Shown here piece after piece: positions 2,225-61,386 of a DNA stretch of 64,000 bases. Every line of letters starts with the position of its first letter. Within the stretch, counting starts at the first letter, position 1. A model generated the notes under the pieces. That model searched no databases and had not been told where the DNA came from. It saw only the letters and a program-made list of their open reading frames with translations. The DNA lies in contig NZ_LBIC01000009.1 of assembly GCF_001005725.1 (NCBI RefSeq), forward strand, positions 186,001 to 250,000, in the 5' to 3' direction. Source of the stretch: Sphingobium chungbukense. GTDB taxonomy: Bacteria; Pseudomonadota; Alphaproteobacteria; Sphingomonadales; Sphingomonadaceae. Both the position numbers and the translations under genes were made by a program.

Positions 2225-2263
2225 AGACGACGCTGCCCCCTTCCCTGTCGCACAATCTTGTGT

Positions 2264-2290
2264 GGAACCGCCCGTGATCGTCACGGTTCC
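2264..2290. promoter_or_regulatory. Palindromic divergent promoter region, EcfG-like
   Basis: Between two divergent cytochrome c genes, GGAACCG (2264-2270) and CGGTTCC (2284-2290) form a perfect 7-bp dyad. Read on either strand it gives GGAAC-N16-GGTT, close to the EcfG general-stress promoter (GGAAC-N16/17-CGTT). The minus-strand copy lies a sensible distance from the start at 2224; the plus-strand copy would be nearly leaderless for the ATG at 2294. A second small dyad, CACAA-TC-TTGTG, lies at 2251-2262. It could equally be a repressor operator. Confidence 0.4.
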
Positions 2291-2293
2291 ATC

Positions 2294-3554: not shown

Positions 3555-4270
3555 GCCGGGGCGCCCCGGGACAGATCGGGCGCGAGCAGCCGGTTCAGCC
3601 GGAGCAGCGCTGCGCCCAGATAAACCCCCGCGGCGGGCACCCACATGATAAGGCCGGCAAGCTGCTGGTCTTCAAGCGGCGACAGCCCCCATGCCTGTGT
3701 CGTGAGCCAATGCGGCGCATAGAAGGCCGAGGGGCTGAAGGTCAGCAGCGCGCCGAGCAGGCCCATCTGCATCATCGAAAAGAGCAGCGCGCCGACCGCC
3801 GCCACGGGGCTCGCATGGCGCAGCCGCGCCCAGAATAACGCGGCGCTGCCGAGCAACGTGGCCTGCATCAGCCAATATAGGCCGTCGTGAGACAGGGCGG
3901 CGGCGTAGGCGGCGGGCGCATGCCAGATCCAGAGGAGCACAGTCTGCGCGAGCGTATAAGCCGCCAGGCTACCCGCCCGTCCGGCAAGCCATTGCGACAG
4001 GATCGGCGCGAGGCCCAGCATCAGCAGCATGTGATGGACGGTGCGCACCGAAAACAGAGCGGAACTCAGCGCGCAGAAGGGCGAGAGGAACAGCGCTGCG
4101 GCGCAGAGCGGGCCAACGAGCGTGCGGGCGCTCGACGTTCGGGACCGCCACCCCAACAGCGCGAGGCCAAGCAGCAGCAGGATAAGGAGCGGATCGCCGT
4201 TCCAGCGCCATGGCAGCTCCGCTGGCGTTGGAGCCGCGCCGCAATAGGGTATCCAGCCAGTGCCCGTCAT
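3551..4270 (-). CDS. ctaG: CtaG-type cytochrome c oxidase assembly protein (caa3_CtaG family)
   Basis: Polytopic membrane protein of the caa3_CtaG family, needed in other bacteria for assembly of the copper centres of caa3 oxidases. I chose the ATG at 4270 (MTGTGWIPYCG), since the upstream extension is charged and low in hydrophobicity. About seven hydrophobic segments follow, with the conserved features RTVHHMLLMLGLAPIL, WIWHAPAAYAAAL and LEDQQLAGLIMWVPA. It is the first gene of the group running ctaG then b561, and shares the locus with subunits I and II of the A1 oxidase, whose maturation it probably serves. Confidence 0.87.
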   Translation of the reverse strand: MTGTGWIPYCGAAPTPAELPWRWNGDPLLILLLLGLALLGWRSRTSSARTLVGPLCAAALFLSPFCALSSALFSVRTVHHMLLMLGLAPILSQWLAGRAGSLAAYTLAQTVLLWIWHAPAAYAAALSHDGLYWLMQATLLGSAALFWARLRHASPVAAVGALLFSMMQMGLLGALLTFSPSAFYAPHWLTTQAWGLSPLEDQQLAGLIMWVPAAGVYLGAALLRLNRLLAPDLSRGAPA

Positions 4271-4340
4271 GCCGATGGTCCCTCCTGCTCCCCAACTTTC
4301 CGCACGGCATGGAGGTTCCTCGTCACGCCCATGAGCGGGC

Positions 4341-6146
4341 TCACGCTCCCGCACCTCTTTTTCCGCTTTCCTGGGCCGGCCCTCCCGCGCGTCCAAGGCT
4401 CATCGCCGCGCTGACGAGCGACAGATGCGAAAGCGCCTGCGGGAAATTGCCCAGCAGCATCGCGCCGTCGACCTCTTCGGAGAATAGGCCAAGATCATTG
4501 GCAAGACCGCACAGCTGTTCGAACATGGCCTGCCCTTCCCGCCTCCTTCCCTGGAGCACCAGCGCATCGACCAGCCAGAAGCTCGCCGCGAAAAAGCCGC
4601 CCTCATCGCCGCCGACGCCATCCTGCATCTCCTCCGTGCGATAGCGGCGAACCACGCCGTCGCGCATCAGCTCGCGCTCTATCGCTGCGATCGTTCCGGC
4701 GATCCTGGGATCATCGGCTGGAAGGAAGCCGATGGCCGGCAGGCGCAGGCAGGCAGCGTCCAGATGGGTGCAGCCATAGGCCCCGACAAAGCTGTTCAGA
4801 TCGACGTCGAAGCCGCGATCCAGCACCTGCGCATGCACCTTGCCTGCAAGACCGCGATAGCGTGAGGACCGATCATCATCGCGGCCGTCGAACCACTTCG
4901 CCGCCTCATGAAAGGCCAGCCACGCCATCGCCTTGGAATAGACATGGTGCAGCGGCGGCCCGCGGCTCTCCCAGATGCCGGCGTCGGGCTGCTCCCATTT
5001 GTCTTCCAGCGCATCCGCCAGCAGGCAGACCAGGGCGTCGCCGTCTCCATTCTGCTCTATGCCGTGTCGCGCGGCGGCAGCCAGGGTGCCGATCACATCG
5101 CCATAACTGTCGAGCTGCAATTGTTCGATGGCGGCGTTGCCGAACCTGACGGGACGGGATTGGGCAAAGCCGGGCAGCCAATGCGCTTCCCATTCCTGCA
5201 CGCGCCGGTCGCCGCCGACGGTGTAGAAGGGCCGCAGGTCGATCGGCTCTCCCCCCACCGCCCGCCGCAGCCAGAAGAGCCAGGACCGCGCTTCGGCGGT
5301 GAGGCCCGCCTGTAGAAGCGCGAGCAGCGACATGGTCGAATCGCGCAGCCAGCAGAAGCGATAATCCCAGTTCCGCTTCCCACCGAGCCGCTCGGGCAAT
5401 GATGCCGTGGGCGCCGCCACGATCCCGCCCGTCGGTTCATGGATCAGCGCCTTGAGGGTGATAAGGGACCGGATCACCTCCTGGCGATAGCCGCCCCTAT
5501 AATCGATCCTGGATACCCAATCGTCCCAGAAATGCTGCGTCTGCCGCAGGGCGAGTTCCGGGTCCACCGGCTCCGGCAGCTTCTTGTGCGAGGCGAACCA
5601 TGTCAGCACGAACCAGTGGCTTTCCCCCTTCCGCAGCGTGAACTGGCTGGTGAAGCGGCGGTCCTCAAACTCGATGGCCATGTCGCTGTCGATGACGATC
5701 CCGTCAGGTCCCGCCATGGCGACGACGCGCGCATCCCCCTGCCTGCGCACCAGCGGATGCAGCTGCCCATAGTCGAAGCGCAGCGCCAGATCGGATCGCA
5801 TGGACAAAGCGCCTTCCCTGCACTCGACGAGGCGGACAATGTCGGGCGCTTCCCCGCGCGGCGGCATGAAATCGATGATCGCCACTTCGCCGCTGTCCGT
5901 GCGCACCACGGTTTCAAGGATGAGGCTGTCGCCCAGATAGCGCCGCGACGTCTCCGTGACGGGTTCGAGCGGAGCCATGCGCCAGCAGCCATTTTCCTCA
6001 TCGCCCAGCAGGGCGGCGAAACAGGCTTCGGAATCGAAGCGCGGCATGCACAACCATTCGATGGTCGCGTCGCGCCAAACCAGGGCAGCCGTCTCGCCAT
6101 CGCCGATCAGCGCATAGTCGGCGATCTGCTTGGGTCGATCCCTCAT
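4341..6146 (-). CDS. Glycoside hydrolase family 15 protein (glucoamylase/trehalase-like)
   Basis: Cytoplasmic (alpha/alpha)6-barrel glycosidase; the family hydrolyses alpha-glucosides such as maltodextrins or trehalose. The 601-aa length and layout match bacterial GH15 proteins: an N-terminal beta domain (IADYALIGDGETAALV, WLCMPRFDSEACFAALL), then the catalytic core with NWDYRFCWLRDS, YGDVIGTL, and the C-terminal FSEEVD and LLGNFPQALSHL motifs. No signal peptide. The start ATG overlaps the stop of the upstream SDR gene (ATGA), so the two are translationally coupled. In relatives the pair occurs in stress-associated clusters. Whether trehalose is the substrate cannot be decided here. Confidence 0.92.
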   Translation of the reverse strand: MRDRPKQIADYALIGDGETAALVWRDATIEWLCMPRFDSEACFAALLGDEENGCWRMAPLEPVTETSRRYLGDSLILETVVRTDSGEVAIIDFMPPRGEAPDIVRLVECREGALSMRSDLALRFDYGQLHPLVRRQGDARVVAMAGPDGIVIDSDMAIEFEDRRFTSQFTLRKGESHWFVLTWFASHKKLPEPVDPELALRQTQHFWDDWVSRIDYRGGYRQEVIRSLITLKALIHEPTGGIVAAPTASLPERLGGKRNWDYRFCWLRDSTMSLLALLQAGLTAEARSWLFWLRRAVGGEPIDLRPFYTVGGDRRVQEWEAHWLPGFAQSRPVRFGNAAIEQLQLDSYGDVIGTLAAAARHGIEQNGDGDALVCLLADALEDKWEQPDAGIWESRGPPLHHVYSKAMAWLAFHEAAKWFDGRDDDRSSRYRGLAGKVHAQVLDRGFDVDLNSFVGAYGCTHLDAACLRLPAIGFLPADDPRIAGTIAAIERELMRDGVVRRYRTEEMQDGVGGDEGGFFAASFWLVDALVLQGRRREGQAMFEQLCGLANDLGLFSEEVDGAMLLGNFPQALSHLSLVSAAMSLGRAGGPAQESGKRGAGA

Positions 6147-7159
6147 CCCTTTTTCCTGCGGAACAGCAGTCCGGCGGCCAACGCCGCCGCAGCGCCTATC
6201 ATCGACGCCGACAGGCGCGGGCGCGTCGATAGCTCCAGCCAGATGCTGTGACGCCGCGCCTGCGCGTCGAAACGGCCATGCGCGCCATGGTCCCCGGGCA
6301 CCGGCTGCCAGAGATTGTCCTGGCGATCGGGCGACACGGGCTCTGCGCCCTGCTGTCCCCTAAAGCCGGTCGCGCCCAGATAGCGGTCGAGCAGCGGCGA
6401 CGCTAGCCGGTCGCCCAATATCGCCTTGGCCGAGGGCAAGGCGACCCACAGCGATTTGCGCCGATGATGGGCCGCATAGTGAATGGCGCGCGCGGCGATT
6501 TCAGGCTGATAAGGGGGGCTGGCGGGCTTGGGCCTGTTCGGCATCGTCGTCCTGATCCAATCGAACTGCGGCGTGTTGACGCCGGGTAGCTGAACCATCG
6601 CCACATGAATGGCGCTGCCGACATGGTCCAGCTCCGCGCGGATGGAATCCTGAAATCCCTGGATCGCGTGCTTCGCGCCGCAATAGGCGGCCTGCAGGGG
6701 AATGCCGCGATAGGCGAGCGCAGAACCCACGAGCACGATCGATCCCCTGCCCCTCGGCAACATCCGGCGCAGCGCGGCCCGGGTTCCGTTGACCTGCCCA
6801 TGATAGGTTACATCGGTGACGCGGCGATAATCTTCGGCCTTGGTGTCCATGAACGGCGCCAGCACGCCAGCGAAGGCCGCGTTGATCCAGATGTCGATCG
6901 GGCCGAACCTCTCTTCCACTCGGGAAGCGGCGTCCTCCACCGCATCGGCGTCGCTGACGTCGAGCGCAAGGACGAGCGCTTGCCCGCCGGCCTGCTCCAC
7001 TTCCCGCGCGGCTGCCTCCAGCCCGTCGCGGCCGCGCGCGATCAGCGCGATGCGCGCGCCATCCTGAGCGAAGCGTCGAACCACGGCGCGGCCCACGCCG
7101 GCCGATGCCCCGGTCACGACGACCACGGGTCGGTCTGGAATGGGAAGCCTGCGCGCCAT
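6143..7159 (-). CDS. SDR family NAD(P)-dependent oxidoreductase
   Basis: Short-chain dehydrogenase with a C-terminal extension. Cofactor motif TGASAGVG at residues 16-23, active-site Ser136 (GSALAY), Tyr149 and Lys153 (YCGAK). After the roughly 250-aa SDR core, about 80 residues end in a hydrophobic segment plus basic tail (MIGAAAALAAGLLFRRKKG), probably a membrane anchor. The ATG at 7159 has GAGGAG seven bases upstream and overlaps the stop of a truncated GMC oxidoreductase reading frame (ATGA). An ATG two codons earlier lacks proper spacing. It overlaps the GH15 gene downstream. Substrate unknown. Confidence 0.9.
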   Translation of the reverse strand: MARRLPIPDRPVVVVTGASAGVGRAVVRRFAQDGARIALIARGRDGLEAAAREVEQAGGQALVLALDVSDADAVEDAASRVEERFGPIDIWINAAFAGVLAPFMDTKAEDYRRVTDVTYHGQVNGTRAALRRMLPRGRGSIVLVGSALAYRGIPLQAAYCGAKHAIQGFQDSIRAELDHVGSAIHVAMVQLPGVNTPQFDWIRTTMPNRPKPASPPYQPEIAARAIHYAAHHRRKSLWVALPSAKAILGDRLASPLLDRYLGATGFRGQQGAEPVSPDRQDNLWQPVPGDHGAHGRFDAQARRHSIWLELSTRPRLSASMIGAAAALAAGLLFRRKKG

Positions 7160-7335
7160 CAACATTCTCCTCGGTCGGCAAGTTTCTTGATGCGGTCGGC
7201 GGTGCGGCAGGCGATCGCCTGAATGGTAAGGGAGGGGTTCACGCCGCCCACCGTGGGAAAAACCGATCCATCGCAGATCCACAAACTGGGAATGTCCCAG
7301 CTGCGGCAATCGACTTCGCCGGACTTGTGGCAGGA
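7159..7335 (-). pseudogene. 3' relic of a GMC-family oxidoreductase
   Basis: The minus strand just upstream of the SDR gene encodes about 58 residues ending at a TGA (7161-7159). They include LWICDGSVFPTVGGVNPSL and TIQAIACRTADRI, which match the conserved C-terminus of FAD-dependent GMC (choline/alcohol dehydrogenase-like) enzymes. The frame hits a stop at 7336-7338, and the FAD-binding N-terminal domain is absent. The 5' end has therefore been lost by a deletion or insertion between here and the ThDP enzyme gene that ends at 7418. The stop still overlaps the SDR start, a remnant of an older GMC-SDR-GH15 operon. Confidence 0.85.
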
Positions 7336-48500: not shown

Positions 48501-48525
48501 TGTGACCGGACAAAGAAGACTGCAT
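48501..48525 (+). repeat. Left inverted repeat of the Tni transposon
   Basis: Begins TGTGACCGGACAAAG and ends AGACTGCAT; it matches the reverse complement of the right end at 22 of 25 positions. An internal degenerate copy (GGACAGAATTCGCTGCA) lies at 48554-48570. Confidence 0.88.
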
Positions 48526-48576
48526 CCGGCCCCATTTCCCCGTTTTGCCGGACGGACAGAATTCGCTGCAGCGGCC

Positions 48577-49869
48577 TCACTTTCTGACGCCCTTCAGCAT
48601 GCGCGCCGCGGCGTTGGAGGACGGCGCCAGCTTGCGGCCATAGCGTAGAGCAGTCGCGGTAGAGGTCCAGCGCAACGCCTGCGCAATCGGCCCCGCGTCC
48701 TCGCCATTGGCGAACAGGTCCTGGGTCAGCCCGACCCGCAGCGAATGCGTGCTCAGGGCATTGATCGCCTCGGCCAGATCGGCTCCCATGAGATCGACCA
48801 GGCCCTGATCGGCGGCTGCGAGCGCCGTCCGCTTGATGATCAGACGCACAGCGGCGGGTGTCAGTGCGTCTTCCCCAATTTTGTATGTCGCGGTGGCAGC
48901 GCGCGCGGGCCGCGCGACCATGCGGTCGCGATCGACCTGGGCATGATAGGCCAGATCGCTGATGGTACGTTCGCGCCGGGCTTCGCTTGGCTTTGTCCTG
49001 GTCACCGCCACCCTGCGGAACAGGACGCCCGCGCGTATGGAGGCTGCCTCCCGCCACAAAGCCACACGCCGCATCGTATCGGGCGAGAGCCACACCAAGG
49101 CCCCTTTCCCGTCCTGGTCGGTTTTCGAGCGTGCCAGCTCGAGCAGAGCTGAGCCGTCCTCTTGCCCTTCAATCTGTTCGAGCGCGACCGCCGCCAGTTC
49201 CGACACCCGCAGACCGGCATCATAGCCCAGCGACAGGATTGCCGCATCGCGCAGTCCCACGACATCGCGCCCACAGGCATCAAGCATGACCGCAAGCGTG
49301 AACCCCTTGACCGGCTCCGGCCCGACTCCGTCGCCGAACCGCAAGGGGCCGGCCTGGCGCTGCCTGACCCCGGCCCGGCGCCGCAGGCCACGAAGGGCAT
49401 CGCGGACCACCCCGGCACCGACGAGATTGGGAACACCCAGAAGGTGATGGGCCACCGCCAGCGAAGACAGGCGCCGGGACACGGTGGCCGGCTTGAACTT
49501 ACGCGTCTCGCAATAGTCGACATAGGCCACGAGCCGAGCTTCGCTGGCGGGCAAACCGATCCCGCCCTGCCCTGCCGAAAAGTGCGCGTAGCAATCCAGG
49601 TCGACCGCGAGCGCCTTGATGCTGGCGGGCGCCCGCGCCTCGAGACTCTTCTTGAAATTGAGTTCGACCAGACCAGCGCCTTCACCCGTCAGTTCCTGGA
49701 GCAAGGCGACGAGCTGGGCTTCGCGATTCCGCGCGGACCCGGAACGCCGACGGGGCAGTTTGGTCTCGCCCGGCGGCAGGATCGTCACGATCTCCCCGGC
49801 AACCGCCGCCTTCGGTTGTGCCAGGCGCGGCGCCGGCGCAGACATCGGCAAATCTGATTTCTTGCTCAT
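48577..49869 (-). CDS. Tyrosine recombinase/integrase carried by the Tni transposon
   Basis: Site-specific recombinase of 430 aa. The N-terminal half includes a SAM-like core-binding domain (LAVDLDCYAHFSAG, VAYVDYCETRKFKPATVSRRLS). The catalytic C-terminal domain has Arg221 (DAGLRVSEL), a Lys249 region (ARSKTDQDGKG), His375 and Arg378 (THSLRVG), Trp401 in the place of the second His (LRWTSTATAL) and nucleophile Tyr410 (LRYGRKL). All residues needed for activity are present. It starts 44 bp from the three-copy repeat at 49913-50005, a possible binding or recombination site. It occupies the position of the resolvase in Tn5053-like elements, so cointegrate resolution is the likely job. Confidence 0.88.
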   Translation of the reverse strand: MSKKSDLPMSAPAPRLAQPKAAVAGEIVTILPPGETKLPRRRSGSARNREAQLVALLQELTGEGAGLVELNFKKSLEARAPASIKALAVDLDCYAHFSAGQGGIGLPASEARLVAYVDYCETRKFKPATVSRRLSSLAVAHHLLGVPNLVGAGVVRDALRGLRRRAGVRQRQAGPLRFGDGVGPEPVKGFTLAVMLDACGRDVVGLRDAAILSLGYDAGLRVSELAAVALEQIEGQEDGSALLELARSKTDQDGKGALVWLSPDTMRRVALWREAASIRAGVLFRRVAVTRTKPSEARRERTISDLAYHAQVDRDRMVARPARAATATYKIGEDALTPAAVRLIIKRTALAAADQGLVDLMGADLAEAINALSTHSLRVGLTQDLFANGEDAGPIAQALRWTSTATALRYGRKLAPSSNAAARMLKGVRK

Positions 49870-49912
49870 GGGCCAACCCGGCCTGACGCTGCGGGACAGC
49901 CTCCGGCAGGCC

Positions 49913-50005
49913 AGTCCGGCGTTATTGGCAAGAATCCGGTGTTATTGGGAAAAAAATATCGCCCAAAACCGCGGGCAGCGTGGAGTCCGGTCTTATTGGG
50001 AAAAC
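49913..50005 (+). repeat. Three direct repeats upstream of the recombinase gene
   Basis: A unit close to TCCGGTGTTATTGGGAAA occurs at 49913, 49933 and 49984 (about 20 bp each; the first ends GGCAAG). The two intervals are 20 and 51 bp. The repeats sit between the divergent recombinase and RHE_PE00001 starts, so they may be promoter operators, a recombination (res-like) site, or both. Confidence 0.72.
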
Positions 50006-50131
50006 GACACATGGACGGGATTATAGCTGCGAAAATGTGGCTGTCACTATCGATAACACCTCATTATCGTTAGTTCGAAAAAAGGCTGATCAAGGCTGGT
50101 GCAGTTAAGTCGATTTAACTAGACTTGGTGG

Positions 50132-51328
50132 ATGGCAGACCCCTCGCCCCCCTTCCATCCGCTCCAGTCAGACGAGGATGCGCCCCTCGACGCGCTCATG
50201 GCGGCGCGGGTGCAGGCCACGCTTGCCTGGGGCCAACTACAAGGCAAATTATCACATGTGCCTCGCCAAGTGGCCCATCATTTTTGCGCCGCGCTCGTCC
50301 GCCTCATGCTCATCGAGGCCCTCGCCCAGTCTGGCTTTTCCGGCGCCGAGGGCTGGTTTTCCGCGTGGTTTTCCGGCCTCGCCCCCGTGCCTGACGTCAC
50401 GACCCAGATCACCGCCCCGGCAGCGTTGGTCGCCGACACGCTGCTGTCTGAGCTATCCCTGTCCACCTGGGAACCGCTGGGGCAAGCGACCGCGCAGATC
50501 CGCGCCGCGGCGCGCTTCGATCAGGACAGGCACCATGCTGAGCCTGAAATCCCGCCGGCGTTCGCCGTCGAGGAAGCCACCAGGCTGTCCGAGTCCCTCG
50601 CATTGGGTCCCGAGGAAAATTGGCCGCTCGCCGCGCTGGATCGCCTGCACGACGCAGCCGCAGGCTCGCCGCATTTCGCGCCTGTCGAGCGGAACCGCCA
50701 GTTGCTTGCCCTGCCATCCGGGCCGATGGTCTTCGAGCAGGCAAGGTCCGCCATGCCGCTATGGGCGCTCGATCTTGTCGCCGGTCGTCTGATCGCGCAA
50801 AGCAACCCGGGCTCCCCTCCCCTCCCCTTACCCGGCACCGTGCGGGCCGAAGCGCTCCGGCCCGAATTGTGGCCGCGCGAGCGTGCCATTCTAGTGGCTG
50901 AGGCCGCCGGAAATGCCGCGCGCCGTGTGAGCGAACAACTGGATGCGGCCTATGCGCGGGTGCAGGTTATGCAGGCGGCTATTTCCCGCCTGCGCTCGAC
51001 GTCGCGCGCGCCGCATCTGTACCGGCTGCTCGCCGGCTTTGGCCCGCTGCGCCCGCTGCAGATCGAGCAGGCCCTGGGCGTATCGAAAAACGGCGCGCGC
51101 GATCTTGTGGCAGCGCTCGTCAAAGCGGGCTTGGCCGAAACAACCGCTCCCCGACATCAGGCGGTCATTCGCGCCCTGCCGCCCCCACGCACTTATAATG
51201 TCCCGGCAGCAGAGGACGACGTCAGTGCCGACAGCCCTTATGCCGAACATGACGCGATCATGGCCGATATCGACCGCCTGCTCGCCCGCGCGAATGCCTC
51301 CTGTCGAGGAAATGATCTGGACGAGTGA
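50132..51328 (+). CDS. RHE_PE00001 family protein (DUF1612/HTH)
   Basis: 398-aa protein of a family known mostly from rhizobial and sphingomonad replicons, with no established function. The N-terminal half is helical (VAHHFCAALVRLMLIEALAQ, GAEGWFSAWFSGL). The C-terminal region contains a helix-turn-helix (PLQIEQALGVSKNGARDLVAALVKAGLAE), so DNA binding is likely. It is divergent from the tyrosine recombinase across the repeat region and convergent with tniQ. It may regulate the recombinase or the element; that is inference. A relative lies outside the element at 55,922. Confidence 0.75.
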   Translation: MADPSPPFHPLQSDEDAPLDALMAARVQATLAWGQLQGKLSHVPRQVAHHFCAALVRLMLIEALAQSGFSGAEGWFSAWFSGLAPVPDVTTQITAPAALVADTLLSELSLSTWEPLGQATAQIRAAARFDQDRHHAEPEIPPAFAVEEATRLSESLALGPEENWPLAALDRLHDAAAGSPHFAPVERNRQLLALPSGPMVFEQARSAMPLWALDLVAGRLIAQSNPGSPPLPLPGTVRAEALRPELWPRERAILVAEAAGNAARRVSEQLDAAYARVQVMQAAISRLRSTSRAPHLYRLLAGFGPLRPLQIEQALGVSKNGARDLVAALVKAGLAETTAPRHQAVIRALPPPRTYNVPAAEDDVSADSPYAEHDAIMADIDRLLARANASCRGNDLDE

Positions 51329-51619
51329 GCCGGCTGCAAAACTCCAGGGCGAATGGAAATTTTCGCCTTGGATCCGCTGTTCAAGCAGCGTTGCAGGCCG
51401 CTCAGTCGGCAGATTTCAGGCAAATAATTGATTTTGAACCATAAAATAAAAGTGCCCGCAAAGGCCCCCTAGAGCGCGAAAACGAGGCTCGGATAGGCCA
51501 AGGGTGCTCGGAGACCTTCAACACGCCCTACGAGGCTCTGAGGGCAAAATTGAGCCAAATGTCCTGTGGCCGGCATGTGTCGGCCGATTTTTGCATCGTG
51601 CGGCAGCGCAAGCTCCGTG

Positions 51620-52924
51620 TCATGCGCCCTTAAACGTCAATCCTGTCAGAAACGCCGCCGCTTTCATCTGGATCGGCGCGAGGCACTGTGTCCCCTCCAA
51701 AGCGTCGAAGCCGACGGGAAGACTTGGCAGATGGAGCAGGACGCGAAAGTCTGGATCGGCGAAGCACGCGGCGAGCCGCGCCCGCAAGCGATGGACATCC
51801 TCGTGGCAATCGTCCCAGCGATCGCCATCGCAACGCGCGACAGGATCAGTACCGTCCGCCAACCCGGCTTCCTGCAGATACACCAGCGCCTCCTGGAAGC
51901 CCCGCAAACAGGTCTGCGCGGAAATCTCACCACCAGCCATCTCGGCGGCGCGGCGGAGACTCACCTCGTGCGCCAGCGCCGCACGGCCCTTTCGCCACAC
52001 ACCCTGCCAATGCACAAAGCTGTAGTTCTCCTTGGCCCGCTCCAGTCGCTTGCAGACCTTGCCCAGTTCCCGGCACTTGCGCTCAAGCTGCCGCAGGCCG
52101 ATCCTCGCGATCGTCTTCGCGAGGTCCGGGAGTTTGGGGCCAGACGCGCCCCGCGCCCTGCCCGTTGGCGCGCCGCGTCCGGGCCGCGTCGTGAAGCCGA
52201 AAATCTGCTCCCATTGGCCGGCTTGGAGTCCGTCTTTACTGTGGAGGGCCGCCAAGAGCAGATGACGGGCAGGTGCGATATGGAAGCAGTTGCCGACCAG
52301 CGCCGCCCGATAGCGTGCCGGCATAGCCCCGAAACTGGGGTCACTCCCGCGAACATGGGCGCGCGCAATGGTCCCATTCCAGGCGAGGCGGGTTTTGACC
52401 AAGGTAAAGCGGGCCATTTGCGCCCGGGTCCGATCCACATTCTCCTCAAGCAGCTGCCGCGCCGCGTTGCCATGCCCCCGGACCATGATCCCCCGCAGAT
52501 CGGTCAGCAACAAGGCATGGGTTTCGCAACAGGCGGTCACGCGCAAAATCCAGCTCCGCTCGATCCGCCATGGCTCGGCGGACGCCAACCAATCGCGCCA
52601 GCACTGGGCGCAGCCGATCGAACGCAGCGGCAAAGGCAACAGATCGGCCTTCGGGCAGCCCACGAACGTCCCGGAAATCGCCTTCTCCGGTACCATCGTC
52701 GCCCAAGCCAACCGCTCAACCATGGCGTGACGCGGTTCCGCCGCGCCAGCGGCTGAGGATGCCAGATCGCGATCGGCCAGCGCCGCGTCGATCCCGAGAT
52801 GGCGAAACAGTGCCTTGGGAGTGGTGTCATGACACTCGGCCAAGCGCCGCAGCCAGGATTCGAAACATTCTTCGGGCAGCGGCTTCACCCGAAACGCCAA
52901 GGGTTCGATGTCCCGGCCGCTCAT
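51620..52924 (-). CDS. tniQ: TniQ family transposition protein
   Basis: Target-selection adaptor of Tni/Tn7-like transposons, linking the target to the TniB ATPase. Signature start PLAFRVKPLPEECFESWLRRLAECH (P-x-ESW-x-R), then the zinc-binding set CAQCW, ERSWILRVTACCETH with LLTDL. 434 aa, so longer than minimal TniQ; the extra C-terminal half is basic and helical (LRQLERKCRELGKVCKRLERA). Start overlaps the tniB stop (ATGA). No CRISPR array or target-guide gene is next to it. Confidence 0.88.
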   Translation of the reverse strand: MSGRDIEPLAFRVKPLPEECFESWLRRLAECHDTTPKALFRHLGIDAALADRDLASSAAGAAEPRHAMVERLAWATMVPEKAISGTFVGCPKADLLPLPLRSIGCAQCWRDWLASAEPWRIERSWILRVTACCETHALLLTDLRGIMVRGHGNAARQLLEENVDRTRAQMARFTLVKTRLAWNGTIARAHVRGSDPSFGAMPARYRAALVGNCFHIAPARHLLLAALHSKDGLQAGQWEQIFGFTTRPGRGAPTGRARGASGPKLPDLAKTIARIGLRQLERKCRELGKVCKRLERAKENYSFVHWQGVWRKGRAALAHEVSLRRAAEMAGGEISAQTCLRGFQEALVYLQEAGLADGTDPVARCDGDRWDDCHEDVHRLRARLAACFADPDFRVLLHLPSLPVGFDALEGTQCLAPIQMKAAAFLTGLTFKGA

Positions 52925-53763
52925 TCCGGGCTGTAGGGCATGAAGAGCTGCAACGCCTGGCTGATGTCGTCCTGCGTCACCAGCGCACGGTCATGCCGCT
53001 TGGCGACCTTTCCTGACCAGCGCAGGATCCGCTTGAAATTTCCGGTCACCCCGCCGCTTTCGCGCCAAATGCGCTCGGCAAAGGCGGGGTCGGCCAGATG
53101 GTCGGGCTCTTCCATCCCCATGCCGCGCGCCAGCGCCCTGATCAGGCGCTGCGAGGGCTCGCCTGGCTCCCATAGCGGCAATTTGAGCATGATCGAACGG
53201 TAGGCCAGCTCGACATCGTCAGCAAAGATCTGCCGGGCGACATCGAGGCCCGCCACGACCAGGGGCACATTGCCCGCGCTCATCAGGAAACGGAACGCAT
53301 CGAGGGTGTCGCGCCGCGCGACGCCGCTGGCCGTCAGCATCACGTGGACATTATCGATTGCGACCAGCCTCGTACCCTGTGCGGCCAGGAGATCGACCAC
53401 CTTCAAATCGGCGGTTTTGTGCGTGTTCGTGCGGATCGGCCAGCCCTGTTTCCAGAGCAAGGCGAGGTTGATCTTGAGCGAGGTCGGACTCGAGGGAATG
53501 ACCGTCCGCAACACTGGTTGATAGCGCGCCTCGCCCCAATGGGCAGGCTCGGGAAAGGCCTCGGTCAGGCGCCGCTGGGCTTCGCGCAAGATCGAGGTCT
53601 TCCCCATGCCGGACTGGCCGGTGAGCACGATGCAGGTCGGGCGTTCCTCGGGGTCGTCATGGGCGACTTCGACAATCGTCTCCACAGCGTTGTGGGCTTC
53701 TTCGAAATCGATCCAGAATGGGGATGCGGGCGCCAAGGAAGGCGGTGGTGCAGCCACGCTCAT
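52921..53763 (-). CDS. tniB: TniB family AAA+ ATPase of the transposon
   Basis: 280-aa TnsC-like ATPase that forms a target-bound filament and recruits TniA. Walker A is GQSGMGKTS (residues 49-57). The Walker B motif reads LVAIDNVH (residues 133-140); the usual Asp-Glu pair is Asp137-Asn138, which may abolish or slow hydrolysis. Sensor and lid features include SAGNVPLVVAGLDVA and SGGVTGNFKRIL. It overlaps tniA and tniQ at both ends (ATGA). Confidence 0.88.
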   Translation of the reverse strand: MSVAAPPPSLAPASPFWIDFEEAHNAVETIVEVAHDDPEERPTCIVLTGQSGMGKTSILREAQRRLTEAFPEPAHWGEARYQPVLRTVIPSSPTSLKINLALLWKQGWPIRTNTHKTADLKVVDLLAAQGTRLVAIDNVHVMLTASGVARRDTLDAFRFLMSAGNVPLVVAGLDVARQIFADDVELAYRSIMLKLPLWEPGEPSQRLIRALARGMGMEEPDHLADPAFAERIWRESGGVTGNFKRILRWSGKVAKRHDRALVTQDDISQALQLFMPYSPE

Positions 53764-55433
53764 GTCCGCTCCTGCAACCAGTCATCCTCGCCCAGGTCCG
53801 CGACCGGTTTCCAGTCAACCGGCGGCCGTTCGGGCTTTCGGGCAACGCGCAGGTCCGCCAGTGTCGTCCCCTCCCCTTCCCGGCGCTTGGCCTGGCGCCT
53901 CGCCTCCTTCGTGCGGGCGCGCGCGTCGTGGATTTCCTGGTTGGCGGCAGCAACCGCCCGTGCGGTCGCGGCGCGACCGCCATCGGCCTGATAGGCCCTG
54001 CCCAAGGCCCTGACCCTCGCTCTGCCGGCTTCCCAGTCCGCCTCCCAAACGTCTGGATACTGGCCGATGACCGGCAGTTCCACATAGCTGCCGTCCAGGT
54101 CGGCATAGACATGCTGGATCGTCCGCTCATCCCAACTGATCTCGACCTTTTGGCCGATTCGGGCGGCGAGCGCCTGATGCCAGTAATGGCGATATTTGAT
54201 CCGAACGCCCTTGGCATGGACCGTCAAGGACGTCGACGGCAGGAACTGGCGGAAGAGCTGCTCCGCATCGACCGACAGGGGCAGCAGCCGGCCGCGTCTG
54301 GCCGCTTCCCGCTCCCACATCTGAGCGGGGCAGAGGCCGCCCAGCGCGCTGTGCGGCGTGTGGTGATAGATCGCGATCTGGCACAGGAGCCATCGCTCGA
54401 ATTCAGCCAGCGTCATCGCTGCTTCCGCTTCGGCATCGTACCCGTCGCGCGCCGAGACGTTCGATCCCGTCGCACCGGGCAAAAGTCTCAGTTTTCCGAC
54501 CATTGTGCCGATCAGCCGCTCGATATGCCCGCCTAGATGGGCAGGCCCAGGCTTGCGGACATCGGGGTCTATCCCGTTGCGCACACAGGCCCGTCTGAAG
54601 CCCTCCGACCGATGCGGTTTAGCCTGGTCCGCATGCAAGCGGCTGAACAGGCCATACATTGGGTAGCTGACGTCCACTCCCAGATGATTGAGGATCGGCT
54701 CCTTGGGCAACATGGCACTCGCAACCGCCCGCCCGCACCGGAATATCGAAGGGTCGCCGAAGCTGACATAGTAGCCGAGGATCGATCGGGTCCAGATTTC
54801 GATGAGGAAGGTGATCCAAGGTCTTCCGAGCTGTTCCCGCCTCAGGCTATCGACCAGGATGACATCACCCCTGGTATGATCCATCTGAACCAGGTCGAGA
54901 AATCCGTCGCTGCAATATTCGCCGGGGTGTGGCTCATGGGCACTTCTGGTCTTTGATCCCATCGTGGCTTTGGCCCAGACGCGGCTCGGAATTTCACACA
55001 GCAGCCGATCGATCGTTTTCTCGCTTGGGATCAGATCGGCGGAAAACCCGTGATTTCCATTATCCGCGTGCAACAGGCCCCATATCTGCCGCGCCGCTTC
55101 CGCCCGCGACGGCGACACCATCTTGAGCGCAATTTCCTCGATCAACGTCTCGATCGCAGCCATCACCTCCGGATCAATCCGGTGCGATCCGAGAGTGGGT
55201 CCCCGCGGTTTTGGAGCAAGCGTCTCCGCGACCGGATGCGCCCTAAATCGCGCAGCCAATGTCCGTATCTGCCGCTCCTTCAAGCCTGTTGCCTCGGCAA
55301 TCGCCGCGACCTGAGCTGCCGTCACCGGGCCGGAAAGGGAGATATGTTGCCGGAAGTGCGGGTATAGCGCCAAACCCGCCTCGAGCGATTTGAGACTTCG
55401 TCGGGGCGCGGGAGACGGCTTGCGCTCAATCAT
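53760..55433 (-). CDS. tniA: TniA-type DDE transposase (Mu/Tn5053 integrase family)
   Basis: Catalytic transposase, 557 aa from the ATG at 55433. N-terminal helix-turn-helix parts (AEATGLKERQIRTLAARFRAH) bind the ends. The RNase H-like core has Asp185 (VQMDHTRGD), Asp269 (RLHADQAKPH) and Glu305 (GGHIERLIGTM), giving the DD-35-E spacing expected. A Mu transposase C-terminal domain follows (KGVRIKYRHYWH, ISWDERTIQHVYADLDG), and the tail is basic (AKRREGEG). The gene starts about 140 bp inside the right inverted repeat. All catalytic residues are intact. Confidence 0.92.
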   Translation of the reverse strand: MIERKPSPAPRRSLKSLEAGLALYPHFRQHISLSGPVTAAQVAAIAEATGLKERQIRTLAARFRAHPVAETLAPKPRGPTLGSHRIDPEVMAAIETLIEEIALKMVSPSRAEAARQIWGLLHADNGNHGFSADLIPSEKTIDRLLCEIPSRVWAKATMGSKTRSAHEPHPGEYCSDGFLDLVQMDHTRGDVILVDSLRREQLGRPWITFLIEIWTRSILGYYVSFGDPSIFRCGRAVASAMLPKEPILNHLGVDVSYPMYGLFSRLHADQAKPHRSEGFRRACVRNGIDPDVRKPGPAHLGGHIERLIGTMVGKLRLLPGATGSNVSARDGYDAEAEAAMTLAEFERWLLCQIAIYHHTPHSALGGLCPAQMWEREAARRGRLLPLSVDAEQLFRQFLPSTSLTVHAKGVRIKYRHYWHQALAARIGQKVEISWDERTIQHVYADLDGSYVELPVIGQYPDVWEADWEAGRARVRALGRAYQADGGRAATARAVAAANQEIHDARARTKEARRQAKRREGEGTTLADLRVARKPERPPVDWKPVADLGEDDWLQERT

Positions 55434-55571
55434 GGATGGACTCCACAACGATTTCTGCGTCGATGAAAATGTAGCTTACTTTGTCGACCACCGCGACGGA
55501 CAAATCGAGCGAGACAGAATTGCTTGCAGTATCGTCGCTATAACCTTTTGATTTGACGATGAAACAGCAAA

Positions 55572-55596
55572 ATGCAGTCTACTTTGTCCGCTGACA
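55572..55596 (-). repeat. Right inverted repeat of the Tni transposon
   Basis: On the minus strand reads TGTCAGCGGACAAAGTAG and ends ACTGCAT, near-identical to the left end. An internal copy, GACAAAGTAAGCTACAT, lies about 100 bp inside (55471-55488). Confidence 0.88.
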
Positions 55597-55921
55597 CCAG
55601 CCGCTTTTTTCGCCGTGAACGGTTGAGCGCAAAGCGGGGTCAGGAGGTCAGCTCTCGACAGAGACCTGGCCTCCTTCGCGATAGGCGCTCTGTTTGCCTT
55701 GTGCGAACAGGAGATCTGCCTTGTTGCGGGGCCCTGCCAACCGCCCTGCCCTCGCCCATCCGACATCAAATCATGCTGGCCGCGCTCATGCCGATGTGCC
55801 ATAAGCAGCTTTGTGGTCGAGTCCTTCATGTAAGACATCCCACCCTTCCAATCCGGGCCTATCAGCGGATACAACCAACGCCCCTCTTTGGTTGTACGTG
55901 CCCTTGCGCTATCCCTAGAAA
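55597..55921. other. Right flank of the transposon, no supported gene
   Basis: No frame here has recognisable domains; a minus-strand frame of 153 codons overlaps the transposon end and looks spurious. The stretch probably carries the promoter of the RHE_PE00001-like gene that starts at 55922. Confidence 0.5.
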
Positions 55922-56872
55922 ATGCGCGATTTCTCATCCTCTTCGGATCAAGCCCTGCTTCTCCTTGGCCGACTCGACGGAAGGCTGCTCAACAGCCCGG
56001 CAGCCAATATCTGGCTGGCGCAGGCGAGATTGAAGGGCGCGGCTGCCCTGGCAAGCTTTGCGGGCATTCCCGTGTCGGTGAGGAACCTGCAGGACTGGAT
56101 TTGCGGCCGCACGGCTCCGCCACGGCACAGCGAAGGTCTGAACGATCCCTTTTCCATCGCCGCCCTGTTTCACTTTGCCCTGTCTGCGACGGAGGGCCAT
56201 GGCGACCCTATCGCGCGGGCGACGCTCAATGTCTCGCGTAGCTTGCTGGACGATCGGAAGGAGGCCGACCTTTGGGCGCCGGAGGACCTGGTGCGTTTTG
56301 GTCCGCTCTGGCGCATGGCGCAAATGCTGCTGGAAGCTCCCTACCCTGTCGCATCCTTCCAGACGGTCGCCCGGCGTCTGATCGAAGCACGCACCAGCCT
56401 GGACATGCCAGCGACGGAAGGACAATTGCTCACGACGATCGATGGGCGGCAGTTGCGGATAGAAGCGCGGCGGTTCGATACGGGGTGGCTGTTGGCCTGC
56501 CATCTGCCCGCGGCGCTTGTCGCGGCCGGTCTGGCTCTTCGTCCCCTGCCCTCGCTGGTCGATCTGCCCCGCTTCCTGCCGGATGATCCAGAGGCACTGG
56601 CCGGGCATATGGCAACCATGATCGCAAGGCAGGCGGGTCAGGGGCTGGTTGAACTGGACCGGTTGGAAGCGAAGCTCGCGCAATTGCCCCAGTTGCCGGT
56701 CACACGGCGAAGCAAGGCGCCGCTCCTGATCCGGCTGGAACTGGCTTATCCTGGGCTTGGCAGGACGGCGATCGCCCGATTGCTCGGCATTTCCCATCAG
56801 GGTGCGACCAAATTGGTGGCGCAGGTGGAGCGGCTGACGGAGGGTCGGCTTTCGGGGTTGGGTGGTCGGTAG
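55922..56872 (+). CDS. RHE_PE00001 family-like protein (DUF1612/HTH), plasmid backbone copy
   Basis: 316-aa protein, start ATG at 55922. Helical N-terminal region with WLAQARLKGAAALASFAGI and LQDWICGRTAPPRHSEG, a middle region of about 100 residues, and a C-terminal helix-turn-helix (PGLGRTAIARLLGISHQGATKLVAQVERL). It resembles the transposon-borne protein at 50,132 in layout and in the C-terminal HTH, although it is shorter. It sits beside the iteron array and convergent with repA, so it could be a plasmid regulatory protein. No function is known for the family. Confidence 0.72.
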   Translation: MRDFSSSSDQALLLLGRLDGRLLNSPAANIWLAQARLKGAAALASFAGIPVSVRNLQDWICGRTAPPRHSEGLNDPFSIAALFHFALSATEGHGDPIARATLNVSRSLLDDRKEADLWAPEDLVRFGPLWRMAQMLLEAPYPVASFQTVARRLIEARTSLDMPATEGQLLTTIDGRQLRIEARRFDTGWLLACHLPAALVAAGLALRPLPSLVDLPRFLPDDPEALAGHMATMIARQAGQGLVELDRLEAKLAQLPQLPVTRRSKAPLLIRLELAYPGLGRTAIARLLGISHQGATKLVAQVERLTEGRLSGLGGR

Positions 56873-57543: not shown

Positions 57544-58755
57544 TCAGAGGCGGTGCCGGTTCTTCTCGTGGAAGCGACGGACGAAGCCGATGAAGGCCTT
57601 TTGGTAGCTGACCGGCGTACGAGCGGCATCGCCGTCAAGCCAGTCGCGAAATTCCTGATGCAGTGCCTGATAGTCCCAGCCAGGGCATTCTGCGCGCAAG
57701 GTGGCGAGCGTGGCGTCGGTGATCTCACCCGCGCTGGCCTTGGCGGACAGTCCCGCCACGGTGCGGCGGATCATGGCGCTCGCGTCGAACAGTTCCGGCT
57801 TTTCCGCTGCCACGGATGGGGAGGGGGACGGGGAGGGGAAGGGACTATCGGAAGTCGGCTTGGTAACGGGCCGGGCGGCCGGCAGGCTGGCCGGGGCGCT
57901 GACGGAGGGAGATGGAACAGCGGAGCGGCGGCGCATGCGCAGCGAGGGTTCGCGCTTGCCCTCCGCCTGTTCGAGATGCAGCGTGTAGCCGGGCAGGGGG
58001 TCCCGTTCGGCGATCTTGGCGATCTCGAACTTGAAGCGGCGGTACGCGCCCTCGGCCCCGGACTTGTCGAACAGGGTCGGCATGGAGATGGCGAAGCCGG
58101 CCTCGCCCGCACCGCCGGCATGTTTGCGCGCCACCTTGTAGAGCCAGCGTTCGCGGCCGCCCGTGAGGTCGAAATAGGCGCGGTCGATGCTCAGCACGCC
58201 GCCCTGCATCAGCACGCCTTCATAGAACCAGTTGGAAAGCTCGATGGTCATACCGCGCGAGCGTTCGGTGCGTTCGTCGACAAGCTGGGTCCAGCCGTCG
58301 AGCCAACTGAAGGTCGCCTCGCGGCGGTTTTCGGCGCGGATGTTGGTCTTGATGGTGGTGGAGACGAGCCGGTCGAGCGACTGGCCGAGCAGTTCATAGG
58401 CGCGGCCGGTGGTCGGCCGGTGGATGGCGCGCAGCAGGTCATAGGGCATGAGATGCAGCTTGCGCGGAATGTCGTTGAGGCCGCGGCGGGCCATGTCGGC
58501 CAGTATCGAGGCGCAGTAGATGAGGATGTCCGCATCCCAGATGGTCGCCATGCCATAGTCGGGATTGGCCGAGACATGGACCCATGCCTTGCCGTCGGGG
58601 GAGGTGTAGTCGATTGGCTTGACCCGCTTGGTCTTGGCGAGGCTGAAGAAGGGGCGCTCCATCATCTCGCGCTGGTCGCGCAGCGGCATGTCCGCGATAT
58701 AGGGAAGGAAGAGTTCGAACTGGTCGTTGATCTCGGTCTTGCCGGTGCGGATCAT
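57544..58755 (-). CDS. repA: Plasmid replication initiator protein RepA (RPA family)
   Basis: 403-aa initiator of the RPA family used by sphingomonad and other alphaproteobacterial plasmids. Conserved beginning of the fold: DQFELFLPYIADMPLRDQREMMERPFFSL, then SPDGKAWVHVSANPDYGMATIWDADILIYC. Winged-helix regions follow (RATFSWLDGWTQLVDE, IELSNWFYEGVLMQGGVLSIDRAYFDLTGG). A Pro/Ser-rich linker (SPFPSPSPSPSV) separates a C-terminal domain of about 80 residues. It should bind iterons and recruit host replication proteins. Upstream lie the parS-like palindromes and parB, parA on the same strand; the iterons are on its 3' side. Confidence 0.9.
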   Translation of the reverse strand: MIRTGKTEINDQFELFLPYIADMPLRDQREMMERPFFSLAKTKRVKPIDYTSPDGKAWVHVSANPDYGMATIWDADILIYCASILADMARRGLNDIPRKLHLMPYDLLRAIHRPTTGRAYELLGQSLDRLVSTTIKTNIRAENRREATFSWLDGWTQLVDERTERSRGMTIELSNWFYEGVLMQGGVLSIDRAYFDLTGGRERWLYKVARKHAGGAGEAGFAISMPTLFDKSGAEGAYRRFKFEIAKIAERDPLPGYTLHLEQAEGKREPSLRMRRRSAVPSPSVSAPASLPAARPVTKPTSDSPFPSPSPSPSVAAEKPELFDASAMIRRTVAGLSAKASAGEITDATLATLRAECPGWDYQALHQEFRDWLDGDAARTPVSYQKAFIGFVRRFHEKNRHRL

Positions 58756-59026: not shown

Positions 59027-60115
59027 TCAGCGTTGCAGCCCCTTGCCCTGTCGTTCGAGATGGTCGAGCGTGTCGCGCAAGGCCTGGGTCAGCATGTCCA
59101 TGTCCGCGCCGGACCCGGCATGGAGACGGATGGTGACGCCCTGGCGATTGACGGACTGAACGGTGAGCGCGGGGCGGCCAAGACGGGTGTTCCAGACATA
59201 GGGTTCTTCCCTGGGCGCGGATTGTGCGGCGCGAGGGGCGTCGAGCAGGCGTTTGAGCACATCGCTCGCTGGGATCAAGATTGCACCAGCCGCGCGCAAG
59301 GCGCACTGTTCGGAAGCGAGCCGGCCGGCTTCCGCCATGATCGCCGGGGCGGCTTTTGCGTCGTCGAGCGCCTGCGCGAGGGCATAAGCGGGTTTCAGCA
59401 GCACGTCGGCAGGCGACGCGAAGGCGTCGATGATGGGGTCGGGAATGCCTGCGACCTTGATCATCTTCGACAGCCAGCCCTTGGAGAGTTTCAGCCGTTC
59501 GGCCATGCGGGTCAGGTGGCTGCCATAATGGGCCTTGAGAGCTTCGGCATAGTTGCGGGCGCGCTCCAGATCCGAGACGTCCTTGCGGGCGCGATTTTCC
59601 AGATCGGCCAGGCGAAAGGCGGCTTCGTCGTCAAGCTGGGCGACCTGCGCCACGAACATCATCTCGGGATAGCTGTTCGCGCGCAGCCAACTGATCGACC
59701 AGTGGCGGCGGGTGCCCGCAATCACCTCATAATCGTGATCGGGGTCGCCCTCGACCCGGCGGACCACGGCGGGCACCTTCTGCCCGCCTTCGGCGATGAT
59801 CGAATCGATCAGTTCGCGGCAATTTTCCTCATTGAGAAGCGCCTGATGCCGGGCATTGCCGGTCCAGATGCGGACCTTGGCCGGGTCGAGCAGCAATTGC
59901 GTGACCTGCCGCACCTCGCCCGAGGCGAGACGGGCGAGCGCGGATTCGCGGCCGAGCAGGGTCGTGCCGCGCGCACGGTCTGGACGACCCTGGACCGGGG
60001 GAGCGGACAGGGGGGGCTCCGGTGCCTTGATTTCTTCCTGGGCGGGCGCAGGCGTGGCAGCCTCCGCCTCCTCCGAAAGCAAAGCGGCGAGATAGTCGGA
60101 TTGCTTACGCGCCAT
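59027..60115 (-). CDS. parB: ParB/RepB/Spo0J family partition protein
   Basis: Centromere-binding partition protein, 362 aa from the ATG at 60115, with GGGGGG seven bases upstream. After a Pro/Ala-rich N-terminus the ParB domain reads LLLDPAKVRIWTGNARHQALLNEENC, then PAVVRRVEGDPDHDYEVIAGTRRHWSI (CTP-binding-type GxRR motif), then an HTH (HLTRMAERLKLSKGWLSKMIKVAGIP). The C-terminal part probably dimerises. Its likely binding sites are the palindromes just downstream. Spacing to parA is 77 bp. Confidence 0.93.
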   Translation of the reverse strand: MARKQSDYLAALLSEEAEAATPAPAQEEIKAPEPPLSAPPVQGRPDRARGTTLLGRESALARLASGEVRQVTQLLLDPAKVRIWTGNARHQALLNEENCRELIDSIIAEGGQKVPAVVRRVEGDPDHDYEVIAGTRRHWSISWLRANSYPEMMFVAQVAQLDDEAAFRLADLENRARKDVSDLERARNYAEALKAHYGSHLTRMAERLKLSKGWLSKMIKVAGIPDPIIDAFASPADVLLKPAYALAQALDDAKAAPAIMAEAGRLASEQCALRAAGAILIPASDVLKRLLDAPRAAQSAPREEPYVWNTRLGRPALTVQSVNRQGVTIRLHAGSGADMDMLTQALRDTLDHLERQGKGLQR

Positions 60116-60192: not shown

Positions 60193-61386
60193 TCATGCAT
60201 TGATAATATCCTCTTCCCGCGCCGGGGTGACGCGGCCCCAGCCCTGGCGCACCAGAGCCTCTATCTGGCCAAGTGCCTCGTCCAGATTGGCGCGGCAGCG
60301 CTTGTGGGTTCGGGGCGTGCCGATCGGCTTTTCCAGTTCATAGACCGTCATCATGCGCAGCGCCGCATGGCTGATCTCCGCGCTGTCGAGGATGGGCACC
60401 GGAAGAAGCGCCGGGCCGAAGCTCTGTTCCATGATCGCGCGAACCATCGAATGGCTGGGATCGTTGCTGTCGAATTTGGAGCAGAGCAGGCGGACGAACT
60501 GGTAATCGACCGCGATCCCCGCCTGCTGGAGCTGGCCGATCACCTGGTCCATCATCGAGAGGAACTGGACGGTCGAACAGAAGTCGGGCGTGGTCGCGGC
60601 CAACGGCACCAGCAGGGCGTTGGCGGCCTGCATCACGGCAAGGCTGATCGTGCCCAAGGCTGGCGGGGGGTCGAGCAGCACCACGTCATAATGGCGGGCA
60701 AGGTCCATCAGTCCCTGTTTGAGCTTGCGGAAGCGCGCGGCGAGGACCGATCCGCCGTCGCTGCCCGCCGCCGCCAGCTCATATTCGACGTCGAACAGTT
60801 CCAGGTTGGACGGGATCAGGTCGACATTGGGCCAGGCGGTGTGCTTGACCGCATAGAGCAGGTCGACCTGCGTCGGGTCGATCGACAGATAGGGATAGAG
60901 CGTCTCTTCCCGCTGGATGTTGAAATGCGGGTTGAAGCCGAACAGGGTGGTGGTCGTCGCCTGGCTGTCGCAGTCGACCACCAGCACGCGATAGCCTTGG
61001 ACCGCGAAATAATGGGCGAGATGGGTGGTGACGGTCGACTTGCCGACGCCGCCCTTGAAATTCTGGACCGCGATGATCGCGGGCACGTCGAGCGGGGCGC
61101 GTTCGGGCGAGGCGCCCAGCACCTGCCGCATGTTCAGCAGCTCCTCCACCTTGTAGCCGGGGCGGCGTCCGTTTTCGGTCGGCGGGGCAGGGGGCAGGCG
61201 GCCATCCTCCTCCGCCATGCGGATCCGATTCGTCGAGCAGCCCAGCAGTTGCGCCGCCTCGGCAATGCCGAAGCGGATGTTGAGTTCCTTGCGGCTATCC
61301 GGCAGAAAAGCCTTGCGCCGCAGGCGTTCGACCATCTTTTCGCCGGCCTCCGCCAGATCGCCAATCTGGGTTACCACTGCGTTCAT
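60193..61386 (-). CDS. parA: ParA family partition ATPase
   Basis: Walker-type ATPase for plasmid partition, 397 aa from the ATG at 61386. The N-terminal 100 residues contain a helix-turn-helix-like region (IRFGIAEAAQLLGCSTNRIRMAEEDG), as in type Ia ParA proteins that repress their own operon. The deviant Walker A is KGGVGKST at residues 111-118; VLVVDCDSQ and DVVLLDPPPALG follow. It is the first gene of parA-parB-repA, all on the minus strand. The 291 bp before the divergent kinase should hold its promoter and operator; a TTCA/TGAA dyad lies near 61442-61459. Confidence 0.93.
   Translation of the reverse strand: MNAVVTQIGDLAEAGEKMVERLRRKAFLPDSRKELNIRFGIAEAAQLLGCSTNRIRMAEEDGRLPPAPPTENGRRPGYKVEELLNMRQVLGASPERAPLDVPAIIAVQNFKGGVGKSTVTTHLAHYFAVQGYRVLVVDCDSQATTTTLFGFNPHFNIQREETLYPYLSIDPTQVDLLYAVKHTAWPNVDLIPSNLELFDVEYELAAAGSDGGSVLAARFRKLKQGLMDLARHYDVVLLDPPPALGTISLAVMQAANALLVPLAATTPDFCSTVQFLSMMDQVIGQLQQAGIAVDYQFVRLLCSKFDSNDPSHSMVRAIMEQSFGPALLPVPILDSAEISHAALRMMTVYELEKPIGTPRTHKRCRANLDEALGQIEALVRQGWGRVTPAREEDIINA

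Follow-up and report, generated by a model that had tools for sequence, protein, structure and literature searches.

At positions 48501-55596 of a 64,000-nucleotide stretch of Sphingobium chungbukense DNA (contig NZ_LBIC01000009.1, positions 186,001 to 250,000; hereafter, the window) lies a complete Tni transposon composed of five genes between inverted ends (Table 1). By its gene content and ends, it is a Tn5053/Tn402-like transposon of sphingomonad plasmids. According to the junctions described below, its lineage, hosted overall by soil and water bacteria, inserts into genes related to RHE_PE00001 (hereafter, RHE genes), one of which the element carries itself. The two termini are complementary at 22 of 25 positions (88%), the first entry among 94 inverted pairs listed for the region, and a partial second copy of the right end, located 103 bp inward, fits the expected arrayed transposase sites. 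On the right, tniA, tniB, and tniQ form one overlapping operon reading leftward, with 4-bp overlaps at tniQ/tniB and tniB/tniA. Pfam matches to TniQ, TniB, Mu-transpos_C, and Phage_integrase were all above cut-off in the element proteins; 35 residues separate the last two catalytic residues of TniA (D190/D274/E310), TniB bears the Walker A motif GQSGMGKT, and the tyrosine recombinase (TyrRec) has the complete R-K-H-R-W-Y set. For PF02914, neither the window's own genome nor any control gave a match, so that this negative carries no information. A preliminary description made from the letters of the window had proposed the 22/25 ends and a DD35E tniA followed by tniB and tniQ in overlapping order, all of which were confirmed by the end comparison, the open reading frames (ORFs), Pfam, and the catalytic residues. 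A copy at 98.7% (query 201-7299) spans the element end to end on another plasmid, NZ_CP117472, where it is bordered by the 5-bp target-site duplication (TSD) CCAAG.

Relatives were drawn from 43 loci on genome contigs and from further loci on plasmids. TyrRec, tniA, tniB, and tniQ were present in all 31 elements with both ends recognised, 28 of which also carried a gene matching the RHE profiles, i.e., the same five gene families between both ends. The TniA of the window falls within a clade of 37 rows (support 100/100) separated by a long stem from the TniA of Tn402 and other Tni elements, and the tool warns of long branches. When compared to Tn402 of R751, identity was 31% over 420 aa for TniA and 26% over 256 aa for TniB, while TniQ yielded no BLASTP alignment with its R751 counterpart; the window end matched the tniA-side end of R751 at 15/25 positions, the next best R751 position reaching 13/25. 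The TniA clade and the shared gene content support the assignment of the window element to a distinct Tni lineage, as the preliminary description had suspected. Some members showed particular features. In L057, L065, and L078 (7726-bp element), the gene in the RHE slot was unmatched by RHE profiles; that of L078 encodes a protein of 330 aa, for which direct comparison gave a weak helix-turn-helix (HTH) match (probability 6). L073 (10401-14211) and L075 (14274-17665) contain heavy-metal efflux genes (TolC, RND adaptor, CusA) after TyrRec and one small ORF, which are probable cargo. L011 (6008-9774) is decayed, retaining the left end and TyrRec, RHE, and TniQ remnants, with tniA and tniB unmatched.

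Regarding the insertion target, 57 right ends were obtained from 64 tniA entries, four having been dropped without a recognisable right end and three with a flank shorter than 100 bp. Degraded or partial TniA (L069, L070) lay below the 700-bit bound and outside the count, as did L111, L167, and L174, which were found later and each have tniA beside RHE. In 49 of the 57 elements (45 of 53 distinct junctions), the first 400 bp beyond the right end contained a same-strand RHE match, always in one orientation, which began within 25 nt in 38 elements. As the RHE profiles had been iterated on the very loci counted, a control was performed with two single-sequence queries and no iteration, which identified RHE in 29/57 flanks compared to 0/141 control windows. 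RHE genes are rare by single-sequence search, being detected in 11/249 family genomes with the flanking protein as query and in 17/397 with the on-board one. Loci with distant TniA only showed an RHE match in 0/6 cases (L023, L027, L028, L079-L081); the first of these is another, only distantly related Tni element of the window's own genome (C11:22000-41000; TniA 34%), in which tniA and a tyrosine recombinase gene diverge and the stretch has no RHE match. A 5-bp TSD flanked eight of the 30 relatives with both ends recognised. Joining the flanks of seven (L001, L004, L009, L024, L029, L077, and L078) restored an open RHE frame of 333-405 aa matching the RHE profiles; counted along the stop-to-stop frame, the insertion lies at codons 120-159 in six of these and at codon 380 in L078. 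Nested insertions into the RHE genes of other elements were found in L001, L005, and L078. At the level of sequence, these junctions establish insertion of the lineage into RHE_PE00001-type genes, in one orientation and with 5-bp duplications. The insertions are spread over many positions in target genes of several divergent subtypes, which makes a single DNA word unlikely as the signal.

Several observations weigh against RHE as the sole determinant of the target. No adjacent RHE match was found at 8/57 right ends: L048 is located at a TyrRec N-terminus, L078 near an RHE 3' end, and L052 beside a serine recombinase and array on its left, whereas L051, L059, L064, L071, and L076 are misses or rearranged. 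Among these, L059 (5632-11824) has a perfect 5-bp TSD, CACGC, in an unrelated gene, so insertion outside RHE does occur. Likewise, 22 of the 30 relatives with both ends have no TSD. The window copy itself adjoins, upstream, a complete RHE gene rather than interrupting one, and has no TSD (left CCCCT, right CCAGC), its left neighbourhood having probably been rearranged after insertion; a TniA relative at 89% elsewhere in the same genome sits in another RHE gene with the TSD GTTCA. Additionally, a par/rep profile match lay within 6 kb of 43/48 right ends having at least 3 kb of flank. This makes a partition-linked cue conceivable and would also fit an attraction to plasmid replication and partition regions, through ParB spreading or replication intermediates, with RHE genes merely located there. 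We regard the latter explanation as highly improbable, since the insertions occur at RHE in one orientation instead of being scattered across parA, parB, and rep, since the nested elements strike the RHE gene of another transposon, and since L054 has RHE with no par/rep match in 9.4 kb.

The RHE genes were in turn found next to site-specific recombinases. All ten backbone RHE loci uninterrupted by Tni (L104-L110 and L112-L114) were divergent from such a recombinase, tyrosine in eight cases and serine in two, and seven of them were situated beside par/rep genes (L112-L114 were not); the remaining two matches of this search corresponded to the window gene and to L111, which was hit by a Tni element. 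A second set comprised 19 RHE loci, including element copies (22 matches minus three from the window's own genome); a recombinase was present within 1 kb in 14 (12 tyrosine, 2 serine) and at 1.4 kb in two, while two were abutted by tniA and one lay at a contig end. As far as gene order can tell, these arrangements pair RHE genes with site-specific recombinases, in most cases next to the rep/par loci of plasmids. Starting from the recombinase, the association was looser, which counts against an obligatory pair: relatives of TyrRec had a divergent RHE gene within 1 kb at 16/30 loci, and the 14 unpaired ones comprised two cut by contig ends, two with tniA upstream, and ten whose retrieved 1.5 kb contained no RHE. 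L115 (7232-9513), from a different family within the class, contains an RHE-like gene from which a tyrosine-recombinase profile match diverges.

The pairing raises the question of which partner is sensed. TniQ and TniB could respond to any recombinase on its site, as Tn5053/Tn402 sense serine resolvases at res (PMC7765201, in the part available), and a divergent recombinase is indeed present at the uninterrupted RHE loci and in part of the element left flanks. We nevertheless consider a recombinase beacon unlikely, as the targets share RHE while their recombinases belong to two unrelated chemistries, and as the TSD insertions lie inside the RHE frame; RHE is preferred as the sensed cue because it is the constant partner. 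Another explanation gives RHE a function in defence, addiction, or plasmid maintenance, with the transposon bringing a spare for the gene it breaks and the linkage to recombinases being incidental. An own RHE gene in 28/31 elements agrees with this view, as does RHE_PE00001 of p42e, the origin of the family name, which is described as essential in the available part of PMC3898782 and is located 3' of repC, where the annotation of the stretches covered lists no recombinase. The linkage at 10/10 uninterrupted backbone loci and the strong divergence between on-board and target RHE, of which BLASTP aligned just 74 residues at 30% in the window pair, make it improbable.

Between the recombinase and RHE genes of the window, three repeats of the TCCGG type and a palindrome were identified. 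The preliminary description had noted the three-copy repeat between the divergent genes, which is real, and had proposed 49913-50005 as the resolution site, which is probably wrong. At least two copies occurred in 7 of 32 modules, corresponding to 5/6 distinct serine-paired modules and 2/26 tyrosine-paired ones, and the repeat was set aside as a TyrRec site on account of its occurrence mainly with serine recombinases. The weight matrix was built from the window, L107, and L024, so that independent support comes only from L011, L072, and L104 (L010 has the letters of L107). L010 is a hybrid with an RHE-tni half of L002 type, fused at a point some 45 bp upstream of the palindrome to a serine recombinase and TCCGG array resembling those of L107; neither TyrRec nor a left end was found in this locus, which carries the serine recombinase instead. 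The palindrome at 50046-50074 is a better candidate for the resolution site than the repeat. Its core, ATAA-N6/7-TTA(T/G), was present in 27/32 deduplicated recombinase-RHE intergenic regions, with arms down to 5 bp in some modules and of 12 bp in L002 and L114.

Mosaic modules point to exchange in the same segment. A scan anchored on the palindrome compared modules of equal spacer length (601 pairs drawn from 50 distinct modules) and detected sharp identity switches in 32 pairs. In 14 of these the switch was at +10 to +18, i.e., in the right arm of the palindrome, where identity falls from 88-100% to 20-33%; in the clearest example, L065 and L012 are the same as far as the palindrome and unrelated thereafter. 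We consider these switches evidence for exchange at the palindrome, short of proof for site-specific cleavage. On the other side, the pairs are not independent, the anchor of the alignment is the palindrome itself, and 18 of the 32 switches lie outside the right arm, 17 at -35 to -115 and one at -13, the last between L140 and L169, which have the same RHE next to a tyrosine and a serine recombinase, respectively. The palindrome also occurs with serine recombinases and tracks RHE subtype across recombinase types, and may therefore be an RHE operator instead of a TyrRec core. In that case, ordinary recombination through homology or microhomology at this conserved operator would account for the mosaics, and the resolution site would lie elsewhere; this is possible, if doubtful, being favoured by the link to RHE subtype and by the switches at -13 to -115 and disfavoured by the sharp drop at the outer right arm in the other 14.

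Concerning the RHE proteins, the preliminary assignment of the on-board protein to RHE_PE00001 held in part: it is homologous at profile level to the flanking RHE protein (hhalign probability 99.9, E 8e-31, 296 columns), but showed no NCBIfam match itself, and NF040876 matched the flanking gene only (E 3.7e-6, 26 bits, cut-off 250). The AlphaFold 2 (AF2) models of RHE matched solved Fic structures, Foldseek alone being weak for the flanking protein (E 0.026), and are consistent with a Fic fold plus a C-terminal winged helix, devoid of the Fic motif. The catalytic motif of Fic proteins is HPFx(D/E)GN(G/K)R. It was not seen in the on-board sequence, which had no Fic Pfam match at E 0.01, and was visible in four Fic proteins that match NF040876. 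A search of 190 genomes of the class with NF040876 gave matches in eight, of which L117-L120 are ordinary Fic proteins by eye, L121 looks unrelated, and L115 is the RHE-like locus described above. In contrast to the Fic-fold proteins with a C-terminal winged helix (SoFic, 3eqx), RHE has no recognisable Fic motif, shares 10-11% identity with them, and is found in a recombination setting.

Table 1. Features of the transposon and of the adjoining plasmid region (window coordinates).
Feature	Position	Strand	Basis
Left terminal inverted repeat, TyrRec side	48501-48525	+	22/25 to right end; similar ends in relatives
Tyrosine recombinase (TyrRec), TnpS-like, predicted cointegrate resolvase	48577-49869	-	PF00589; R-K-H-R-W-Y
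Three TCCGG-type repeats, also in serine-recombinase/RHE modules	49912-50004	+	copies 49912-49933, 49932-49953, 49983-50004
Palindrome ACTATCGATAA-CACCTCA-TTATCGTTAGT, Xer-like core; candidate recombination and/or RHE-binding site	50046-50074	.	core in 27/32 modules; mosaic breakpoints
Promoter-proximal inverted repeat AGTTAA/TTAACT upstream of RHE, possible operator (putative function)	50099-50124	.	sequence
On-board RHE_PE00001-related gene: Fic-like fold, no recognisable Fic motif, C-terminal winged helix	50132-51328	+	
tniQ	51620-52924	-	PF06527, 39 bits (cut-off 27)
tniB, AAA ATPase	52921-53763	-	PF05621; Walker A
tniA, DD35E transposase	53760-55448	-	PF09299; D190 D274 E310
Subterminal repeat of right end, possible second TniA binding site	55466-55485	-	85% match to 55569-55588
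Right terminal inverted repeat, tniA side	55572-55596	-	inverted-repeat comparison
Inverted repeat ACAACCAA..TTGGTTGT upstream of flanking RHE gene (putative function)	55871-55897	.	sequence
Flanking plasmid RHE gene, target-type	55922-56872	+	RHE-related; element end 325 bp upstream
Plasmid replication initiator (RPA)	57544-58755	-	PF10134
parB homologue	59066-59977	-	profile match
parA homologue	60235-61359	-	profile match

We consider it probable that the element is a transposon resembling the 'res site hunters', which seeks out RHE-recombinase modules and uses the module on board for resolving its cointegrates. The five genes that fill the element do not include tnsA, for which no dedicated search was made; transposition is thus expected to be replicative, via cointegrates. 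The TniABQ machinery would insert the element into RHE genes of other replicons, and TyrRec, encoded in the element's own module together with the RHE gene diverging from it across the palindrome, would then resolve the cointegrates at 50046-50074. In the available part of Benler et al. 2021 (PMC8649781), the cointegrates of such elements are likewise inferred to be resolved by the recombinase, and Tn7-like transposons of the Tn5053 clade (clade 3) are described with a tyrosine in place of a serine resolvase. The window element shares with them the tyrosine resolvase and the expected absence of tnsA, and differs in the RHE partner and RHE targets, which that part of the paper does not mention. 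The tyrosine recombinase in the resolvase position, highlighted by the preliminary description, is therefore present but not new in kind.

Regarding the accessory protein, TyrRec is related to TnpS of Tn4651 from pWW0 (BLASTP 25% over 330 aa, E 6e-16), whose gene is divergent from that of its helper TnpT with the rst site between them, as described in the accessible part of PMC7157771. Both systems have a tyrosine recombinase divergent from a second gene and a palindromic site between the two, here a sequence candidate, and joint action of TyrRec and RHE at the palindrome is proposed on this basis; RHE may aid TyrRec as helper or regulator, as TnpT aids TnpS. In contrast to the Tn4651 pair, RHE has no sequence similarity to TnpT, and the host element is Tni and not Tn3-family. 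Homology of RHE to TnpT was rejected by sequence (hhalign probability 0.1), which tells against the parallel. The suggestion of the preliminary description that the on-board RHE protein is more than passive cargo is supported, its role in resolution being putative.

When compared to Tn5053/Tn402, the lineage has in common the tniA-tniB-tniQ genes, the 25-bp ends, the 5-bp duplications, the one-orientation insertion into plasmid recombination modules, and the nesting in other transposons. The differences are that TyrRec and RHE replace tniR/res, TyrRec being found in all 31 elements with both ends, and that the targets are RHE genes whichever recombinase is paired, not the res sites of serine resolvases. 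TniQ and TniB may recognise RHE modules much as Tn5053/Tn402 recognise res sites with resolvase, in which case RHE or its site complex would be what they sense. In general, the preliminary description was right about the unit and its lineage but overlooked that the gene outside the right end is itself an RHE gene and that RHE genes are the target. Tentatively, and with somewhat less than even confidence, we propose that RHE is a winged-helix protein with a catalytically dead Fic fold that assists site-specific recombination on plasmids in general, together with recombinases of either the tyrosine or the serine type, and that RHE on the palindrome serves as the beacon by which the Tni lineage chooses its target.

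The targeting of RHE genes and the RHE-recombinase modules appear to be new: among the titles and abstract beginnings returned by searches of the open PMC literature, no paper described the lineage, its RHE targets, or RHE-recombinase pairs. With this finding, 'res hunting' would no longer be confined to the sites of serine resolvases but would include modules whose common element is a partner gene, and RHE_PE00001-type proteins, which are labelled hypothetical, 'MarR', or 'helix-turn-helix' in the sphingomonad plasmid records covered, would gain a genetic setting. It suggests a non-enzymatic role of the Fic fold in DNA recombination and offers a directly testable system of target selection that has no CRISPR guides. 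For the sphingomonads, it reveals the settling sites of a transposon lineage on their plasmids, with some members found beside metal-efflux genes.

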